Below, piece by piece: positions 3,004 to 15,150 of a stretch of 47,606 bases of DNA; the stretch's first letter is position 1; every line of letters starts with the position of its first letter. The notes under the pieces are model-generated. The model did not search any database, was not told the DNA's origin, and was given only the letters and a program-made list of their open reading frames with translations. Position numbers and translations under genes: made by a program. The DNA is from Candidatus Buchananbacteria bacterium CG10_big_fil_rev_8_21_14_0_10_42_9 (GTDB lineage Bacteria > Patescibacteriota > Patescibacteriia > Buchananbacterales > 21-14-0-10-42-9), in assembly GCA_002773845.1 (NCBI GenBank), contig PEZZ01000007.1, positions 17,007 to 64,612 of the forward strand. Direction: 5' to 3'.

Positions 3004-3921
3004 ATGCCAAAATCTTTAGTCACCGGAGGAGCCGGGTTTATTGGATCACACATTGCCGACGCTTTGATTGAACGTGGACATGAGGTCGTTGTGGTTGATA
3101 ATTTAGTAACCGGTGCTAAAGAAAATGTAAACTCCAAAGCGAAGTTTGTGGAGCTAGATATTGTTGACCAAAAGCTCGGTGATTTAATGATCCAAGAAAA
3201 ATTTGATTATGTTTTTCACAGCGCTGCCCAGATTGATTTGCGTAAATCAATTGATGATCCAGTCATGGATGCCAACACTAATATTTTAGGTGCGATTAAC
3301 GTGATTCATGAATCGCAGAAGGCGGGCGCGAAAAAGTTTATTTTCTCATCTTCCGGCGGAGCGATGTATGGTGAGGCAAAAAAGTTGCCAACTCGCGAAT
3401 CGGCCGAAAATCCGCTTTCACCATACGGCATTGCTAAAAAAACGATTGAATTGTATTTAGCCGCTTACTTTGATATGTATCATATGCCCTATGTGTCTTT
3501 ACGCTACGCAAATATTTACGGGCCGCGGCAAAGCACTCTTGGTGAGGCGGGCGTTGTGGCGGCTTTAGCTAGTCGAATTTTAAGCGATAAAGAATGCGTA
3601 ATTTTTGGCGATGGCGCCCAAACACGTGATTTTACTTATGTTGGCGATGTGGTGGAAGCTAACATGCTTGCGATGGAAAGCGATTTTATCGGTTCAGTAA
3701 ATATTGGCACGGCGAAAGAAATTAGTATCAATGATCTAGCGCAATTAATTCAGCAAGCAGCCGGCACAAGTGTTGTGATTCCGCACAAGGAAGCGCGTTT
3801 CGGCGATGTGTTGCGAAGCTGCTTGGATAGTAAACTAGCTAAAAAGGAATTAGGCTGGCAACCGCTGACTAAAATTAAAGACGGTATTCAGCTAACCGTA
3901 GATTGGTTTAAAGCTAAATAG
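3004..3921 (+). CDS. NAD-dependent sugar-nucleotide epimerase (GalE-like SDR)
   Basis: Extended SDR of 305 residues, predicted to interconvert UDP-hexoses (UDP-glucose/galactose or their N-acetyl forms). It shows the NAD-binding GGAGFIGSH at residues 8-16, DNLVTGAKEN near 32, HSAAQIDLRKS near 72, SSSGGAMYG near 115 and the catalytic SPYGIAK (Tyr-x-x-x-Lys) near 140. LRYANIYGPRQ and FGDGAQTRDFTYVGD also fit. The start at 3004 lies three bases after the REP-like element, with no Shine-Dalgarno sequence. The kinase gene begins on the base after its stop codon, so the two are probably co-transcribed. Substrate specificity cannot be read from the sequence. Confidence 0.88.
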   Translation: MPKSLVTGGAGFIGSHIADALIERGHEVVVVDNLVTGAKENVNSKAKFVELDIVDQKLGDLMIQEKFDYVFHSAAQIDLRKSIDDPVMDANTNILGAINVIHESQKAGAKKFIFSSSGGAMYGEAKKLPTRESAENPLSPYGIAKKTIELYLAAYFDMYHMPYVSLRYANIYGPRQSTLGEAGVVAALASRILSDKECVIFGDGAQTRDFTYVGDVVEANMLAMESDFIGSVNIGTAKEISINDLAQLIQQAAGTSVVIPHKEARFGDVLRSCLDSKLAKKELGWQPLTKIKDGIQLTVDWFKAK

Positions 3922-10107: not shown

Positions 10108-10135
10108 TTGACAAGTTTTAAGCAAGAGCTAGACT
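10108..10135 (+). promoter_or_regulatory. Island unit 1 promoter
   Basis: TTGACA (10108-10113), 16 bp, TAGACT (10130-10135). An ATG follows 16 bases later at 10152. It starts the accessory island directly after ndk. Confidence 0.5.
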
Positions 10136-10136
10136 G

Positions 10137-10163
10137 ACGGCAGTTCCTTACATGCCGTTTTTT
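10137..10163 (+). terminator. Hairpin plus U-run after ndk / at the unit 1 5' end
   Basis: ACGGCA (10137-10142) pairs with TGCCGT (10153-10158), followed by six T. It lies just after the unit 1 -10, so it could terminate ndk transcripts, or very early unit 1 transcripts. Confidence 0.55.
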
Positions 10164-10179
10164 AAACCCAAACTTGTTT

Positions 10180-10250
10180 GGAGAACTCTTATTGTGAGTA
10201 CAAGGCAACTTGTAAATACCAAAGAGCTCTCCAGAAATGGGGAGTTTTTT
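10180..10250 (+). promoter_or_regulatory. Unit 1 candidate attenuator
   Basis: GGAGAACTCTT (10180-10190) can pair with AAGAGCTCTCC (10222-10232) with one mismatch, enclosing a small hairpin ACAAG-GCAA-CTTGT (10200-10213) with a GNRA-type loop. The competing hairpin CTCTCC/GGGGAG (10227-10244) is followed by six T. The two structures are mutually exclusive, the logic of a transcription attenuator. Unlike the other units no closed leader peptide is evident. Confidence 0.5.
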
Positions 10251-10304
10251 GGTAGCCGAATTTCTGGTTGCCAACAAGCGCATTACAGCAGAAGGGGAAT
10301 TGTA

Positions 10305-10493
10305 GTGGGCGAGTGCACCGGTTCTCATGACGATGAAAACCAAGTGGCCGCGGACCAGGCTCTGCCTAAGGCTGTAATAGCCACGTCGGATGCTTACCGG
10401 CAGTGGCTTATTCAGCAAGAGGCCTTGCATGGGCCCTCATCCAAGTGGCCACAAAGCAGTTGCCGAAGATTGATTCTCAAGCCCGGCGATTGA
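10305..10493 (+). CDS. Small hypothetical protein, unit 1
   Basis: Unrecognised 62-residue protein starting at GTG with AAGGGGAA about eight bases upstream. It contains VAADQALPKAVIATSDAYR and a basic, Cys-containing C-terminus ending LILKPGD. The same frame stays open upstream to an ATG at 10152, so a 113-residue product that includes the leader region is possible. The upstream residues overlap the attenuator hairpins and look non-coding, so I prefer the GTG. Codon use is GC-rich compared with neighbouring core genes. No function is proposed. Confidence 0.45.
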   Translation: MGECTGSHDDENQVAADQALPKAVIATSDAYRQWLIQQEALHGPSSKWPQSSCRRLILKPGD

Positions 10494-10643: not shown

Positions 10644-10730
10644 ATGATGGAGTTAAACCTTTCAGTCATTATTACCACTATTAAGACCAAGACTACGCAC
10701 CTTGTGGGTGGAAGGTTAATTGTTGCATAG
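10644..10730 (+). CDS. Unit 2 leader peptide (Thr/Ile-rich)
   Basis: A 28-codon ORF whose ATG lies nine bases after the -10. Its middle reads SVIITTIKTKTTH: five Thr and three Ile codons within twelve positions, ending about nine bases before the anti-terminator strand at 10706. The stop TAG is inside the conserved CATAGATAA. The arrangement resembles the thr operon leader peptide, where stalling on Thr/Ile codons prevents termination. That it is translated is inference. Confidence 0.5.
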   Translation: MMELNLSVIITTIKTKTTHLVGGRLIVA

Positions 10731-10796
10731 ATAATACAAGTTAGACAATCGCAAGCAGCCTTCTACCCAGAAGGCTTTTTTGATTGTCTTGCTTGC
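10706..10796 (+). promoter_or_regulatory. Unit 2 transcription attenuator
   Basis: GGGTGGAAGG (10706-10715) can pair with CCTTCTACCC (10759-10768), one G-U pair. This would disrupt the terminator AGCCTTC / GAAGGCT (10757-10776) that is followed by six T. Flanking arms AGACAATC / GATTGTCT (10743-10750, 10782-10789) and GCAAGCA / TGCTTGC (10751-10757, 10790-10796) interleave. From CATAGATAA to the end the sequence is almost identical to unit 3 (11549-11636). Confidence 0.72.
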
Positions 10797-10886
10797 CTGG
10801 ATACGCCTTACGCGGATTCCATGCGGACAAGACAGCACATTGACTAAACATCGGACTCAATTTCCCGCCTTGCGGGGGAGAAAGAA

Positions 10887-11303
10887 ATGCCGACGAGGAG
10901 ATTAATTTTTGTTCCGGCTGAGTGTCATGTCTCGGCCAATGGCGATGGTGCATTCCATGCCAGCATCACTATGGCTGAGAAGTTTGACTTAAGTCGCCTA
11001 CGGAGCGGCAGCGCAATTTCCGAATGCATTCAGTGTGCGGTCGGCGATGCTGTGTCTGAAGCCATGGGATTACCGTGCTCGACAGCACTAAAGCTGGATG
11101 ACGCGGGAAATCTGTGGCAACACGTGTCGGTTGACGGTGGCTACTCAAGCAGCCGCCGTCTAGCGGACAAAGGCGAAGCGTTGGCTGATAGAATTTGGCC
11201 CATGCTTGAATCCGCTGAGCCGGTGCTTGTCCAGGCGATGGCGTCTGAAATGGCTCGTGTTTTCACGGACTACAATAGAGTGTACGTCGACTATGCAGTA
11301 TAG
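10887..11303 (+). CDS. Hypothetical protein, unit 2
   Basis: Unrecognised protein of 138 residues. It starts at ATG preceded by GGGGGAG, itself sitting on a CCCGC-CTT-GCGGG hairpin (10864-10876). The N-terminus looks like strands (RRLIFVPAECHVSANGDGAFHASITM), then a helix (AISECIQCAVGDAVSEAMG), a glycine-rich turn and a long C-terminal helix (SAEPVLVQAMASEMARVF). There is no signal peptide or membrane segment. Strand-helix order and spacing resemble the unit 6 protein. The coding sequence is clearly GC-richer than core genes. Function unknown. Confidence 0.72.
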   Translation: MPTRRLIFVPAECHVSANGDGAFHASITMAEKFDLSRLRSGSAISECIQCAVGDAVSEAMGLPCSTALKLDDAGNLWQHVSVDGGYSSSRRLADKGEALADRIWPMLESAEPVLVQAMASEMARVFTDYNRVYVDYAV

Positions 11304-11452: not shown

Positions 11453-11481
11453 TTGACATTATTTTTTACTTCCTATATACT
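11453..11481 (+). promoter_or_regulatory. Island unit 3 promoter
   Basis: TTGACA (11453-11458), 17 bp, TATACT (11476-11481), close to perfect consensus. The leader ATG follows ten bases later. Confidence 0.8.
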
Positions 11482-11491
11482 GCAAAACAAC

Positions 11492-11548
11492 ATGAATATT
11501 GCCAAACTTTCCCAAATTATTAACATTATCATTATTGACCAGCCTTAA
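11492..11548 (+). CDS. Unit 3 leader peptide (Ile-rich)
   Basis: Encodes MNIAKLSQIINIIIIDQP, 18 residues with seven Ile codons, six of them in a seven-residue stretch. The stop TAA is directly followed by the anti-terminator strand GGGTGGAAGG. The ATG is ten bases after the -10, so the mRNA would be essentially leaderless. This is the expected layout of an isoleucine-sensing attenuator; translation and stalling are inferred. Confidence 0.6.
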   Translation: MNIAKLSQIINIIIIDQP

Positions 11549-11636
11549 GGGTGGAAGGTTTAGCGCATAGATAAAAACAAGTTAGACAATCGCAAGCAGC
11601 CTTCCCCCGGAAGGCTTTTTTGATTGTCTTACTTGC
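11549..11636 (+). promoter_or_regulatory. Unit 3 transcription attenuator
   Basis: Strand GGGTGGAAGG (11549-11558) competes with the terminator AGCCTTCC / GGAAGGCT (11598-11616) followed by six T. Outer arms AGACAATC / GATTGTCT (11584-11591, 11622-11629) and GCAAG / CTTGC interleave as in unit 2. The near-identity with unit 2 extends over about 70 bases, while the peptides and genes on either side differ. Confidence 0.75.
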
Positions 11637-11727
11637 TTATACCAGTGGTATTAGCGAGCAAGGCATTTGGTCTTCATAAGTTATCCTGTTCGACTCAACC
11701 CTAAACACCCCGAGAGGAGGTTTAATT

Positions 11728-12159
11728 TTGAGCGCAAACAACTGGTATTATTACCCCACTGGAACCATTCTGGTTCCAAGAAACCCTGAAGGCGGAGGCC
11801 ATGAATCTATCCACGGAGAGTACGGTGAATGGTTCATGGTCAGGGGATATCAAGGCAGCGAAGGTGATGACCTCGTGGTGTTGGTGTCTCTGAGTGAAAG
11901 GACGGGCGCTTGGAAGCGGCTCTTCCCCGGCCATTACGGGACACCTGATGTTGGCTTGCATCCACACAGGCCGACAATCATGAGGTTCATGAGGCCAGCC
12001 ACTCCTGAAGAGATACTTCCCCAGCAGATGGCGGAGCTCTACCGTGATGAGCTCGACGTGCTGTACCACTGGGGTAACCGCGAGCAGTGGCCTGACCACC
12101 TGCGCAAGCGGTTCCGCCGGCGTCGGAGTATTCCGAAGCGAGAACTCAACGGGCAGTAA
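11728..12159 (+). CDS. Hypothetical protein, unit 3 first gene
   Basis: Unrecognised protein of 143 residues, starting at TTG eight bases after a strong GAGAGGAGG. It has an aromatic N-terminus (NNWYYYPTGTILVP), a Gly-rich segment, a hydrophobic strand (DDLVVLVSLSE), HPHRP near residue 75 and a strongly basic tail (KRFRRRRSIPKRE). No signal peptide or membrane helix. GC-rich codon use. The basic tail could bind nucleic acid, but that is speculation. First gene of a likely four-gene transcript. Confidence 0.7.
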   Translation: MSANNWYYYPTGTILVPRNPEGGGHESIHGEYGEWFMVRGYQGSEGDDLVVLVSLSERTGAWKRLFPGHYGTPDVGLHPHRPTIMRFMRPATPEEILPQQMAELYRDELDVLYHWGNREQWPDHLRKRFRRRRSIPKRELNGQ

Positions 12160-12175
12160 AGCCCAGGAGGAGGAC

Positions 12176-12247
12176 ATGACAAGAGGACCGCCCAAGAGGG
12201 CTGGACGCGAATGGAAAGCGTCCGGCCCTCACACACCCTGCTTCTGA
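12176..12247 (+). CDS. Very small ORF, unit 3 second gene
   Basis: A 23-codon ORF (starts MTRGPPKRAGREWK, ends PHTPCF). It is preceded by an exceptionally strong AGGAGGAGG placed right after a GGGC...GCCC hairpin (12151-12164). The hairpin plus Shine-Dalgarno arrangement matches the longer island genes, which is the reason for listing it. It is basic and has one Cys. It could be a microprotein or a translational leader for the next gene. Confidence 0.45.
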   Translation: MTRGPPKRAGREWKASGPHTPCF

Positions 12248-12344
12248 ATGCTGATAATTATTTGTCATTATCCAGAAGCCGAGTGCTTCCTAGCGATGTA
12301 GTTTCGCTAGTAAGTCCCGCGTAGCGCGGGGGAGGATTTACATA

Positions 12345-12704
12345 ATGCCTACCGGGACCAAACGGAAACGGTTTGAATTGTTCTATCTGTCGCCTGAGAA
12401 ACGTGGTGGCAGTTGGCAGGTTTGCGTTGGCGTCCGTGACTGTGTCGATCGCCGAGAACATCGCGGCAAAGGCGCAGACGATCTTCAGCACCTTGCTATC
12501 GAACGGGCGTTCGCTAAGGCACTGGGCGATAAGCTCTCTTTCAGCATCAAGTGGGAGCTGGATCTGGATAACGAGCAGCGCGCAACTGGCGGCTGGTTGC
12601 GGAATGGCAAAGCAAGAGTAAAGCTTGGGAGTTTGCACTCTCATAGCTCGGCGGATTTCGCCAACGCTATTGTAGCAGCCTTGAATACAGTCACCTCGCA
12701 CTAA
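12345..12704 (+). CDS. Hypothetical protein, unit 3 third gene
   Basis: Unrecognised 119-residue protein. The ATG follows GGAGG by nine bases, and the GGAGG sits on a perfect CCCGCG-TAG-CGCGGG hairpin (12316-12330). A strand-like N-terminus (KRFELFYLSP, GSWQVCVGVRD) leads to a helix (DDLQHLAIERAFAKALGD). Two strands (SFSIKWELDLDN, KARVKLGSLH) and a last helix (DFANAIVAALNTV) follow, suggesting a small alpha/beta fold. GC-rich. A longer antisense frame overlaps it but has no ribosome site or promoter. Function unknown. Confidence 0.65.
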   Translation: MPTGTKRKRFELFYLSPEKRGGSWQVCVGVRDCVDRREHRGKGADDLQHLAIERAFAKALGDKLSFSIKWELDLDNEQRATGGWLRNGKARVKLGSLHSHSSADFANAIVAALNTVTSH

Positions 12705-12732
12705 GACCTGACCCAGTTGAGGAGAACAAGAC

Positions 12733-13017
12733 ATGTACACACAAGGAACCGCGTTGTGCTCTCCGGGAGCAAATGCGGAAAGCGGAAACTTCCTAGTAGT
12801 ACTGGAGGTAGCCAAAAAAGGGGATCGCCCCATCTGTATGGTAAGTCCAGCTCTGGCAAGCATGGTCCAGCGGCCTTATGTCGGACCGGTGGATACCACA
12901 ATTCTTGACGCGCTCGTGCCCGTCGCGCTTGAGAGCGCGGCGTTCCAGAGTGTCGTGTCGGAGTTGACCGGTGAGGATCGCCGGCAAGTGCGTCGGCTCC
13001 GGCCGCGTAGTCGGTGA
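12733..13017 (+). CDS. Hypothetical protein, unit 3 fourth gene
   Basis: Unrecognised 94-residue protein starting at ATG eight bases after GAGGAG. It has a hydrophobic strand (NFLVVLEVAKKG), a helical middle (TILDALVPVALESAAFQSVVSEL) and an Arg-rich C-terminus (RRQVRRLRPRSR). It lies 28 bases after the previous gene and before the terminator at 13039, so it is probably the last gene of unit 3. GC-rich like the rest of the island. Confidence 0.6.
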   Translation: MYTQGTALCSPGANAESGNFLVVLEVAKKGDRPICMVSPALASMVQRPYVGPVDTTILDALVPVALESAAFQSVVSELTGEDRRQVRRLRPRSR

Positions 13018-13089: not shown

Positions 13090-13117
13090 TTGACAAAAAA
13101 TAAGGCTATGCTAATAT
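13090..13117 (+). promoter_or_regulatory. Island unit 4 promoter
   Basis: TTGACA (13090-13095), 16 bp, TAATAT (13112-13117). The leader ATG follows nine bases later. Confidence 0.75.
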
Positions 13118-13126
13118 GTTTTTAAC

Positions 13127-13186
13127 ATGATTTTACACGCAAACAACCTACCATTATTGCCTTTATTGCCAGTCCCAAGCCGGTAG
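13127..13186 (+). CDS. Unit 4 leader peptide (Leu/Pro-rich)
   Basis: Encodes MILHANNLPLLPLLPVPSR. Five Leu and four Pro codons fall in ten consecutive positions (CTA CCA TTA TTG CCT TTA TTG CCA GTC CCA). The stop TAG overlaps the first base of the anti-terminator strand GGGAGTTTG. Its spacing from the -10 is the same as in units 2, 3 and 6. It suggests control by charged tRNA-Pro and/or tRNA-Leu; translation is inferred. Confidence 0.6.
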   Translation: MILHANNLPLLPLLPVPSR

Positions 13187-13253
13187 GGAGTTTGTTTGTA
13201 TCCATAGATAAATAAAAGTTTCAGACAAATTCCCATACCAACTGGGATTTTTT
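13186..13253 (+). promoter_or_regulatory. Unit 4 transcription attenuator
   Basis: GGGAGTTTGTTTG (13186-13198) can pair over 13 positions (two G-U) with CAGACAAATTCCC (13222-13234). This prevents the short terminator stem TCCCA/TGGGA (13231-13247), which is followed by six T. The CATAGATAAATAAAAG spacer resembles units 2 and 3. Confidence 0.68.
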
Positions 13254-13278
13254 GATTATAAGCACATTAAATTTATAT

Positions 13279-13352
13279 GTTCGTGTAGCTCAGCAACGTA
13301 GAGCACCTCGCATGGGGCGAGGGGGTCGCAGGTGCAATACCTGTCACGGACC
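13279..13352 (+). tRNA. tRNA-Pro(UGG)-like sequence with altered loops
   Basis: A full cloverleaf can be drawn. The acceptor GTTCGTG/CACGGAC has seven pairs including one G-U. Then come TA at positions 8-9, the D-stem GCTC/GAGC, the anticodon stem CCTCG/CGAGG with loop CATGGGG (anticodon TGG), variable GGGTC, and the T-stem GCAGG/CCTGT. However, the D-loop (AGCAACGTA) lacks G18-G19, the T-loop (TGCAATA) has G at position 55, and position 33 is A instead of U. No CCA is encoded. It follows the Leu/Pro leader attenuator. It may be a specialised tRNA, a decoy or a decayed tRNA; normal decoding is doubtful. Confidence 0.6.
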
Positions 13353-13541
13353 GGGCTTTGCCCGAACTATTCGGCGGTTTCGCCAAATAAGTGCCCACAC
13401 GGGGTGGGAAGACTTATGCGGTGATCCGCCGGCCGGCGCACATCGCGTCAATATCTTCGGAAAGTTGCCCGCAACCCGGGCGGCAATCCACGTGGCGGCA
13501 GGTGTTTACCAACCCTGCCGCCACGATTCCCTAAAAATATT
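13353..13541 (+). other. GC-rich structured stretch after the tRNA-like sequence
   Basis: Contains successive small hairpins (CGGGC-TTT-GCCCG, GGCG-GTTT-CGCC, CCCAC...GTGGG) and ends with a perfect 11 base-pair stem GTGGCGGCAGG/CCTGCCGCCAC (13492-13524). Open frames run through it but have no ribosome site, and the last hairpin lacks a U-run. It is more like an RNA, or a processed tail of the tRNA-like transcript, than a protein gene. Function unknown. Confidence 0.4.
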
Positions 13542-13643
13542 ATGCTAAGACTTTTACTAAAATCTAATGTACTTTCAAAAGCATTGTTATTGCTTGGTTT
13601 GTTATTGTTGGCACCGCCGGGTGGCAAGTTGATACGTGTTTAA
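13542..13643 (+). CDS. Unit 5 leader peptide, Leu-rich frame (alternative Cys-rich frame)
   Basis: The frame starting at 13542 encodes a 33-residue peptide with LLLLGLLLLAPP and 15 Leu in total. A second, overlapping frame from the ATG at 13567 to the TGA at 13632 encodes 21 residues including HCYCLVCYCWH. The second frame stops right beside the anti-terminator strand, as in units 3 and 6, but the first has the more usual attenuator residue run. No consensus promoter is visible, so the unit may be read from unit 4. Which frame is translated is undecided. Confidence 0.4.
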   Translation: MLRLLLKSNVLSKALLLLGLLLLAPPGGKLIRV

Positions 13644-13696
13644 CCAAGTCTTTGATAAACATATATGAGCCTACCACCCCTGTCGGGTGGTTTTTT
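13619..13696 (+). promoter_or_regulatory. Unit 5 transcription attenuator
   Basis: GGGTGG (13619-13624) inside the leader frame competes with GGGTGG (13685-13690) for CCACCC (13674-13679). The second pairing makes a terminator followed by six T. Confidence 0.6.
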
Positions 13697-13796
13697 CATA
13701 AAGGTTCATGCGGACCGTCTCCGCGGGAATCAGGCTCATGCCCTTGTACAATCTCAAAAAATGAAAAAACGAGCAAGCGCTCGGGAGGAAAGGGCC

Positions 13797-14240
13797 ATGG
13801 AACTTGCTGATTTCCAGATGGAGTACTACAAGCACTTACGGCCCGGCCCAATCGGCACTCCGCCAGGGGGATGGGAGATGTCACTGACCATTGGTGATAT
13901 TACCATTTCCAGTAAAGGGGGGCATTGGTACCTCGCCGCTGCCGAGTTGCTTACGCAGCTCGGCTTTCCAAGGGAGTACCTCGACGAGCTCGAGGTCGAG
14001 CACTTGGTCACTTCCCAAGAGACTGCGGAGAAGTTCGTCGGCAACTGCCTGGCACCCTTACGGATTGCCTTAAGTCGGCCGCGGCGGTCTAATCGCCACC
14101 AAATTCGCGTGGCTGGCTACCTGAATGGCCGGCATCGTAAGGAGGGGGCGAAGGCAGGGACGAAACTCGCTGCCTTGCAGGGGGCTATTGCCCGCCTGTT
14201 CGGTGGACGACCCATTCTGCGGACTGAAGGCGCGGCATAA
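13797..14240 (+). CDS. Hypothetical protein, unit 5
   Basis: Unrecognised protein of 147 residues. It starts at ATG nine bases after GGAGG, which directly follows a CGAGC-AAGC-GCTCG hairpin (13770-13783). An in-frame ATG at 13761 would lie upstream of that hairpin and is less likely. Composition: acidic N-terminal helix, strand pair (WEMSLTIGDITIS), helix (WYLAAAELLTQLG), acidic middle, then a basic C-terminal half (SRPRRSNRHQIRVAGYLNGRHRKEG) and a final helix. No signal peptide. GC-rich. Function unknown. Confidence 0.7.
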   Translation: MELADFQMEYYKHLRPGPIGTPPGGWEMSLTIGDITISSKGGHWYLAAAELLTQLGFPREYLDELEVEHLVTSQETAEKFVGNCLAPLRIALSRPRRSNRHQIRVAGYLNGRHRKEGAKAGTKLAALQGAIARLFGGRPILRTEGAA

Positions 14241-14398: not shown

Positions 14399-14427
14399 TT
14401 GACAAGATTTTAAGCATTTGATAATCT
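14399..14427 (+). promoter_or_regulatory. Island unit 6 promoter
   Basis: TTGACA (14399-14404), 17 bp, TAATCT (14422-14427). The leader ATG follows ten bases later. Confidence 0.78.
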
Positions 14428-14437
14428 TTTTATTACT

Positions 14438-14509
14438 ATGAATAACATATCAAATCAGCGAATTTTTTGGGGCTATTTTTTCTTTTTTTCCCACGCCGGG
14501 CGGGACTGA
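14438..14509 (+). CDS. Unit 6 leader peptide (Phe/aromatic-rich)
   Basis: A 23-codon ORF containing RIFWGYFFFFSH: seven aromatic residues in nine positions, five of them Phe. It then has AGRD and a stop directly beside the anti-terminator strand. It is strikingly like the pheA/pheST leader peptides of enterobacteria in composition, though not homologous by sequence. A phenylalanine-sensing attenuator is the natural reading; translation is inferred. Confidence 0.62.
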   Translation: MNNISNQRIFWGYFFFFSHAGRD

Positions 14510-14564
14510 TTTAGTTATTTAAGATAATTTAAAATTAGCAGATCCCGCACCCGCGGGATTTTTT
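14497..14564 (+). promoter_or_regulatory. Unit 6 transcription attenuator
   Basis: GCGGGAC within the leader end (about 14500-14506) competes with GCGGGAT (14553-14559) for ATCCCGC (14542-14548). The latter hairpin is followed by six T. Outer arms AGATAAT / ATTATCT flank it. Confidence 0.68.
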
Positions 14565-14715
14565 GATTATCTAAAAGGGTTAATTCTGGTACAGATAAAT
14601 GGCAGTCTGAACCAGAACCGACCCCTGTAGTGGTCAAACCGGCCCATTTGGGATCGGGCAGAGATATGCCATAACGAACATTGACTTGGCGGGAGCCAAA
14701 GGAGACCTATAAGCC

Positions 14716-15150
14716 ATGCCAGGTACTAACGGACTCATAAGGCCAATATCCTGTGGGAGGGGTTCGCACGTGATTACCGTCTACACGAACGGTGCACGAT
14801 GCAATATCAACCTTCCCTGGGGGGGCTTTGGCGACATGACGGAGGTTGGCCGCACGGTGATGGAGGAAGATATCAACAGCTTCCTGGAAGAAGTGGCCGA
14901 GGCTGCGCTGCCCGGGCATAAAGTCACCGAGAGGTGCCGTACCGTTTCTCACCTTGCGGACGGATCGTTTTCCGTCAGCGTGTCCCTTGAAGTGGAAGGG
15001 GTAATTGACCCAATTAAGGCCACGGAGATCGGTGAGTGTGTGTACCTCCTGCTCACCGAATGCTACTCCGTTGCCTTACGCGAGGCTAGCGCTCGTCTCA
15101 TCGCGAGAGCTGAGGGTAGCTCACCGGTATTCGCGAGGCTTTTCCACTAA
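14716..15150 (+). CDS. Hypothetical protein, unit 6
   Basis: Unrecognised protein of 144 residues. AGGAG lies 11 bases before the ATG and directly after a TTGGC-GGGA-GCCAA hairpin (14686-14699). Predicted order: strands (SHVITVYTNGARCNINLP), helix (MEEDINSFLEEVAEAALPG), strand pair (DGSFSVSVSLEVEG), and a long helix (ATEIGECVYLLLTECYSVALREASARLIARA). The second half shows the same spacing of Gly, Ala and Leu as the unit 2 protein, so they may be distant paralogues. GC-rich, no membrane segment. Function unknown. Confidence 0.72.
   Translation: MPGTNGLIRPISCGRGSHVITVYTNGARCNINLPWGGFGDMTEVGRTVMEEDINSFLEEVAEAALPGHKVTERCRTVSHLADGSFSVSVSLEVEGVIDPIKATEIGECVYLLLTECYSVALREASARLIARAEGSSPVFARLFH

Follow-up and report, generated by a model that had tools for sequence, protein, structure and literature searches.

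A tRNA-Pro-derived sequence behind a predicted Leu/Pro attenuator in an amino-acid attenuator array of a Buchananbacteria genome

The window (the whole 47.6-kb stretch of DNA analysed here, C7:17007-64612) carries at 10.1-15.2 kb five or six attenuators in a row, which from their sequences are assigned to Thr/Ile, Ile, Leu/Pro, Leu and Phe, and behind the Leu/Pro leader lies a sequence (13279-13352, forward strand) whose alignment and covariance-model match mark it as genuine and descended from tRNA-Pro. The first-pass annotation had pointed to a tRNA-Pro-like sequence behind a Leu/Pro leader (ORF 13127-13186), and this was borne out; it had not noticed the surrounding array, which is the stronger finding. 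We put it just short of an even chance that this descendant of tRNA-Pro is a non-decoding tRNA-like element in the RNA made when transcription reads through a ribosome-mediated Leu/Pro attenuator.

The Leu/Pro unit (unit 3, 13090-13253, forward strand) opens with a promoter at 13090-13117 (TTGACA-16-TAATAT, with TGC before the -10 hexamer). The ATG of the leader peptide MILHANNLPLLPLLPVPSR (13127-13186, with its Leu/Pro regulatory codons at 13148-13177) lies about 10 nt past the -10, so that the mRNA would be nearly leaderless. Unmasked, the leader folds with a z of -3.8. With a ribosome masked over the early or middle part of the Leu/Pro codons, the fold model gave an antiterminator (13182-13242, -22.4 kcal/mol) in which GGUAGGGAGUUUGUUUG (13182-13198) pairs with CAGACAAAUUCCCAUACC (about 13221-13238) and the 5' arm of the terminator is sequestered; with the ribosome masked at the leader stop codon, the intrinsic terminator hairpin (UCCCA-UACCAAC-UGGGA followed by UUUUUU, 13231-13253) was formed. 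The unit thus has a promoter, a short leader ORF containing a regulatory codon run and, on the fold model, mutually exclusive antiterminator and terminator structures set by ribosome position, and as modelled it is a textbook ribosome-mediated attenuator. Two Leu/Pro ORFs of this type occur in 954 kb (both strands), and the other one lies outside such a context. The first-pass annotation had matched the UGG at the anticodon position of the tRNA-like sequence to the CCA codons of the leader; CCA is indeed used three times, but CCT is used once and sampled host genes prefer CCG (90 versus 56 CCA), making the match mild evidence. Between the terminator (13253) and the start of the tRNA-like sequence, some 25 nt further on, no comparable promoter was found; the tRNA-like sequence would therefore be made by read-through only, and its place behind the attenuator is consistent with its being part of a longer regulated RNA. 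It is followed by a hairpin-rich non-coding tail (13353-13545, z -5.9) that contains no ORF with a ribosome site and is not repeated elsewhere in the host genome. Nothing sets this tail apart, other gaps between units of the array being similarly rich in hairpins.

The other units, all on the forward strand, have leaders starting at 10644 (Thr/Ile), 11492 (Ile), 13542 (Leu) and 14438 (Phe). Unit 1 (10644-11303) comprises the Thr/Ile leader MMELNLSVIITTIKTKTTHLVGGRLIVA, an attenuator extending to 10783 and an orphan ORF at 10887-11303. Unit 2 (11453-13017) has a promoter (TTGACA-17-TATACT), the Ile leader MNIAKLSQIINIIIIDQP with its ATG at 11492, an attenuator to 11623 and orphan ORFs at 11728, 12345 and 12733. 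Unit 4 (13542-14240) has the Leu leader MLRLLLKSNVLSKALLLLGLLLLAPPGGKLIRV, a terminator at 13673-13697 and an orphan ORF at 13797-14240. Unit 5 (14399-15150) has a promoter, the Phe leader MNNISNQRIFWGYFFFFSHAGRD, a terminator at 14540-14566 and an orphan ORF at 14716-15150. The least certain member is a possible extra unit 0 (10108-10493), with a promoter (TTGACA-16-TAGACT) and a hairpin with a T-run near 10225-10252, identified by eye. The leaders of the array thus precede orphan ORFs, except that the Leu/Pro leader precedes the tRNA-like sequence and its tail. No clear promoter of its own was seen for unit 4 (13500-13545), and transcription of its Leu leader may start at the promoter of unit 3; the two attenuators would then lie in tandem. 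We also observed that no more than about 9-18 nt separate the -10 hexamer from the leader ATG (at 11492, 13127 and 14438, as well as in the relatives L060, L061 and L065), so that these mRNAs look nearly leaderless.

When both strands of the 47.6 kb were scanned for leaders that start with ATG, have the same residue at four of seven positions and are followed by a terminator, four such ATG hits were found on the forward strand of the island formed by the array and none elsewhere on either strand; the scan misses unit 3, which has a short terminator stem, and a hit at 13465 starts with TTG. Against these four, 60 dinucleotide shuffles of the island gave no leader in 59 cases and one leader in the remaining case.

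The orphan ORFs matched no Pfam or PHROG family above the cut-off. Two of them had no relatives in viral contigs and a third had no phage match; a search of 191 genomes with ORF 11728 gave one marginal match, and a sequence search with ORF 14716 gave no solved structure. Structure models reached a pLDDT of 54 for ORF 14716 and 39 for ORF 10887, and a fold search with the former returned nothing reliable. A weak Pfam match (E 0.3) of a relative's ORF raises the faint idea that these ORFs might be stand-alone LeuA allosteric domains.

Attenuators of this pattern were found in named genomes of Buchananbacteria, Falkowbacteria, Uhrbacteria and other Patescibacteria, and the class name ABY1 used here is our reading of the names of these genomes. 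Two further pattern matches, in Halomonas, were rejected as unrelated since they lie inside a protein-coding gene. Six further genomes of the order carry homologues of the Ile attenuator, and a covariance model found attenuator units in the order; in the host genome its matches were significant only within the array, whose four detected units had been part of the training set. Taken together, the leader-peptide attenuator family in ABY1 covers Ile, Leu, Phe, Thr/Ile and Val (relatives L071, L072, L076-L080 and L088-L093). In relatives, a citramalate-synthase-like gene follows the Ile leader (...IIISQPxGGS) and a gene for 2-isopropylmalate synthase follows the Leu leader (...LLLLSQPVGGRF), the synthase scoring above its curated cut-off, so that for these two amino acids a cognate gene stands behind the leader; a Phe leader is followed by one ORF and then by a DAHP-synthase-like gene. 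In other relatives, orphan ORFs lie behind the attenuators, often directly after ndk, the same as in the host. Proteins with a 7-residue tandem repeat (LKEDVSG) adjoin attenuators in L071 (7087-7605) and L078 (6424-6829; both in leader orientation). A search of the open-licence literature for leader peptides and attenuation, in the Candidate Phyla Radiation as well as in Patescibacteria, found no description, which is weak evidence of novelty, and the ABY1 attenuator family is apparently undescribed.

The same region between ndk and rpsL contains in Buchananbacteria (L075) an attenuator for Ile and an orphan ORF, along with fragments of tRNAs and a tRNA-Pro(GGG) that is intact. At 3628-3880 (reverse orientation), this tRNA-Pro lies within an inverted repeat (CCCCTCACCTTTATCGGG) and is preceded by pieces resembling the 5' halves of other tRNAs. 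Elsewhere, near several tRNA genes (L016, L028, L038 and L062), a repeated motif, GCACTAAA(ATTT), was observed together with a G+C-rich hairpin.

Turning to the tRNA-like sequence itself, ARAGORN called 13279-13352 a tRNA-Pro(TGG), and Infernal, which the first-pass annotation had proposed to run, gave in a direct search of this stretch a full-model match to RF00005 of 40.0 bits (E 9.5e-8; gathering score 29) with no non-standard pairs. By comparison, the 41 ordinary tRNAs of the host genome (1.09 Mb in 50 contigs) score 54.5-77.3 bits. The Infernal filters discarded the match in searches of the whole window or of 900 nt. The whole window gave no Rfam match at the gathering score, and in the local search RF00005 alone exceeded its cut-off. 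That a 40-bit tRNA match is filtered out in 900 nt or more suggests that degenerate tRNA-like sequences may escape routine annotation. A T-box riboswitch, a tmRNA or another Rfam family was rejected, as RF00005 was the only Rfam model to give a match and the ARAGORN tmRNA search of the window gave none. The sequence folds at -30.3 kcal/mol (z -2.4 to -2.7), and all 21 cloverleaf pairs are formed, in agreement with the four intact stems described earlier.

The loops depart from those of tRNA-Pro. Positions 18/19, said in the first-pass annotation to have lost G18-G19, read A18-C19 in register with tRNA-Pro; with the D-loop shifted by one base, however, they read C18-G19, in which case G19 is retained and G18 alone is lost. 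The reported replacement of U33 and U55, by A33 and G55, was found as described. The earlier list of changed positions was correct as far as it went, but omitted positions 59/60, which are altered, and the acceptor end, where C1-G72 has become G1-C72 and A73 has become C73. C32 and G38 can pair, lengthening the anticodon stem, and the 54-60 and 55-59 pairs could likewise lengthen the T stem; with U33 lost as well, the anticodon loop is probably reshaped. Outside the elbow, the universal U8, A14, G15/C48, A21, G53-C61, U54, C56 and A58 are kept. Compared with an ordinary bacterial tRNA-Pro(UGG), the sequence has the same length, register and complete cloverleaf, but is without the elbow, the U-turn, the first pair and the discriminator. 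Of the features of an elongator tRNA-Pro, it therefore retains the four-stem cloverleaf and lacks U33, G18-G19 and U55; judged from the changes at 18/19, U33, U55, 59/60, G72 and A73, it is not a decoding tRNA.

Bacterial ProRS has G72 and A73 of tRNA-Pro as determinants, A73 being strictly conserved in bacteria; in eukaryotes the tRNA carries G1-C72 and C73 (PMC9976931). Since both determinants are lost while the host ProRS belongs to the bacterial family, charging of the tRNA-like sequence with proline is unlikely. The host enzyme (G000:C4:22395-23603, 409 aa) apparently lacks the editing insertion, since profile positions 240-394 are passed over in its alignment to the bacterial family. The absence of an encoded CCA, noted in the first-pass annotation, is real but not diagnostic, because the normal host tRNA-Pro with CGG and GGG anticodons are likewise without it. 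The other, normal tRNA-Pro(UGG) whose presence was to be checked does occur in the host genome, together with those for CGG and GGG.

The tRNA-like sequence could be aligned without gaps to eight ordinary tRNA-Pro, each of 74 nt, the closest of which is identical at 50 of 74 positions in the same length and register. Relative to their consensus it carries 26 differences, none of them an indel and none breaking a pair; at six pairs (1-72, 2-71, 3-70, 4-69, 30-40 and 31-39) both sides have changed, and at no pair has one side alone. The eight tRNA-Pro share 22 invariant unpaired columns, and at 8 of these, including 18/19, 33, 55 and 73, the sequence is altered. When the nearest tRNA-Pro was mutated at random 20,000 times with the same number of changes, about 9 pairs were broken on average and in no case were all pairs kept. 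This makes simple neutral decay of the sequence unlikely, in line with the earlier argument from the intact stems, although the test overstates the case because it treats all differences as having arisen after loss of function. If the stem changes are older than the decay, so that just five or six clear violations in the loops count, we estimate from the fraction of tolerated positions a chance of about 2% that all stems were spared, a low value but one to be reckoned with. In the acceptor, a whole block might have been replaced, with pairing that is partly due to chance, and four pairs matching by chance would again have a probability of about 2% by our estimate. DNA searches with the sequence of 93 and of 380 class genomes gave only ordinary tRNAs or short non-tRNA matches; with no second copy among the 380, a set without same-genus sister genomes, the covariation in homologues by which the first-pass annotation had hoped to judge the stems is absent. 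As a single copy is known, function is something that we infer.

In the reading that we favour, a regulated RNA with a non-decoding tRNA-like element, scarcity of Leu- or Pro-tRNA would stall the ribosome on the leader codons and let the antiterminator form, and RNA polymerase would run on into the tRNA-like sequence and its hairpin tail; with Leu- and Pro-tRNA ample, transcription would end near 13253. The element would act by its shape, most simply as a module recognized by RNase P or tRNA enzymes within a regulatory RNA, and would process, stabilise or titrate rather than carry an amino acid. We infer both the classical attenuation behaviour of unit 3, from folding models, and this shape-based action. 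The fuller proposal, that the attenuator's product is a selection-kept, non-decoding tRNA mimic switched on by Leu/Pro starvation, in an array controlling small orphan proteins, we regard as rather less likely than not.

The sequence may instead be a relic, namely a copy of tRNA-Pro decaying at a hotspot, with the attenuator's original gene gone and the adjacency fortuitous, and to this we give a sizeable though minority share of belief. Alteration of the loop invariants, the identity elements and the discriminator would all be expected of a relic, as would a single copy without homologue, and a tRNA-Pro at the ndk-rpsL hotspot has a precedent, because L075 carries one along with broken tRNA pieces; against it speak the 26 differences without an indel, a broken pair or a one-sided change, and a random-mutant test that, as said, overstates the case. 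Chance resemblance to a tRNA, which the default Rfam search might suggest by missing 13279-13352, has next to no probability, being excluded by the score of the direct match and the ungapped identity to tRNA-Pro.

The first-pass annotation had proposed a non-ribosomal tRNA or a regulator of Pro-tRNA charging; as both need a chargeable tRNA, they fare poorly now that G72 and A73 are seen to be gone in a host with a bacterial ProRS. A donor of amino acids outside the ribosome, for example for a FemAB-type ligase, with loops that keep it out of translation, is accordingly improbable: the host genome does encode one FemAB protein, but on another contig. In staphylococcal tRNA-Gly, to which the sequence had been likened, changes in T-stem pairs are thought to lower EF-Tu binding. 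The non-proteinogenic forms have GG replaced by UU or CU and the 49-65 and 51-63 pairs weakened (PMC4052509). The likeness holds at 18/19 only, whereas the 49-65 and 51-63 pairs of the tRNA-like sequence are the same as those of the host CGG and GGG tRNA-Pro, and U33, U55, 59/60, 1-72 and 73 are changed in addition. Slightly less probable still is mimicry of tRNA-Pro, in which the RNA, once the attenuator has opened, would bind ProRS or EF-P and in this way tune translation or the charging of proline. This reading would draw on the retained UGG, G35, G36 and G15-C48 and on a 9-nt D-loop with a stable 4-bp stem, which is the EF-P determinant (PMC4890201), but sits poorly with the loss of U33 and the pairable C32-G38.

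For the favoured regulated RNA, the nearest parallel is the Bacillus cereus pseudo-tRNA tRNAOther, which has no translation role and for which a structural role within a larger, regulated RNA has been proposed (PMC3399842). By analogy, both would be tRNA-like sequences outside translation and parts of a regulated RNA; tRNAOther, however, is iron-regulated, with putative Fur sites in place of a Leu/Pro attenuator, and its expression and phenotype have been shown, whereas the present sequence is known from the DNA alone. The array units resemble the thrL, leuL, pheL and ilvL-type attenuators of E. coli in their short leaders, regulatory codon runs, exclusive antiterminator and terminator and the structural gene behind. 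They differ in belonging to class ABY1, in their nearly leaderless start, in the several amino acids sensed per array, and in that orphan ORFs or, once, a tRNA-like RNA replace the biosynthesis operon.

Patescibacteria are generally seen as auxotrophs with little regulation. The predicted ABY1 attenuators for Ile, Leu, Phe, Thr and Val, which precede first-step enzymes in some genomes and orphan genes in others, may allow one to read which amino acids are sensed and what is switched on. Should the tRNA-like sequence have a function, tRNA charging would directly control a regulatory RNA that itself has the shape of a tRNA.
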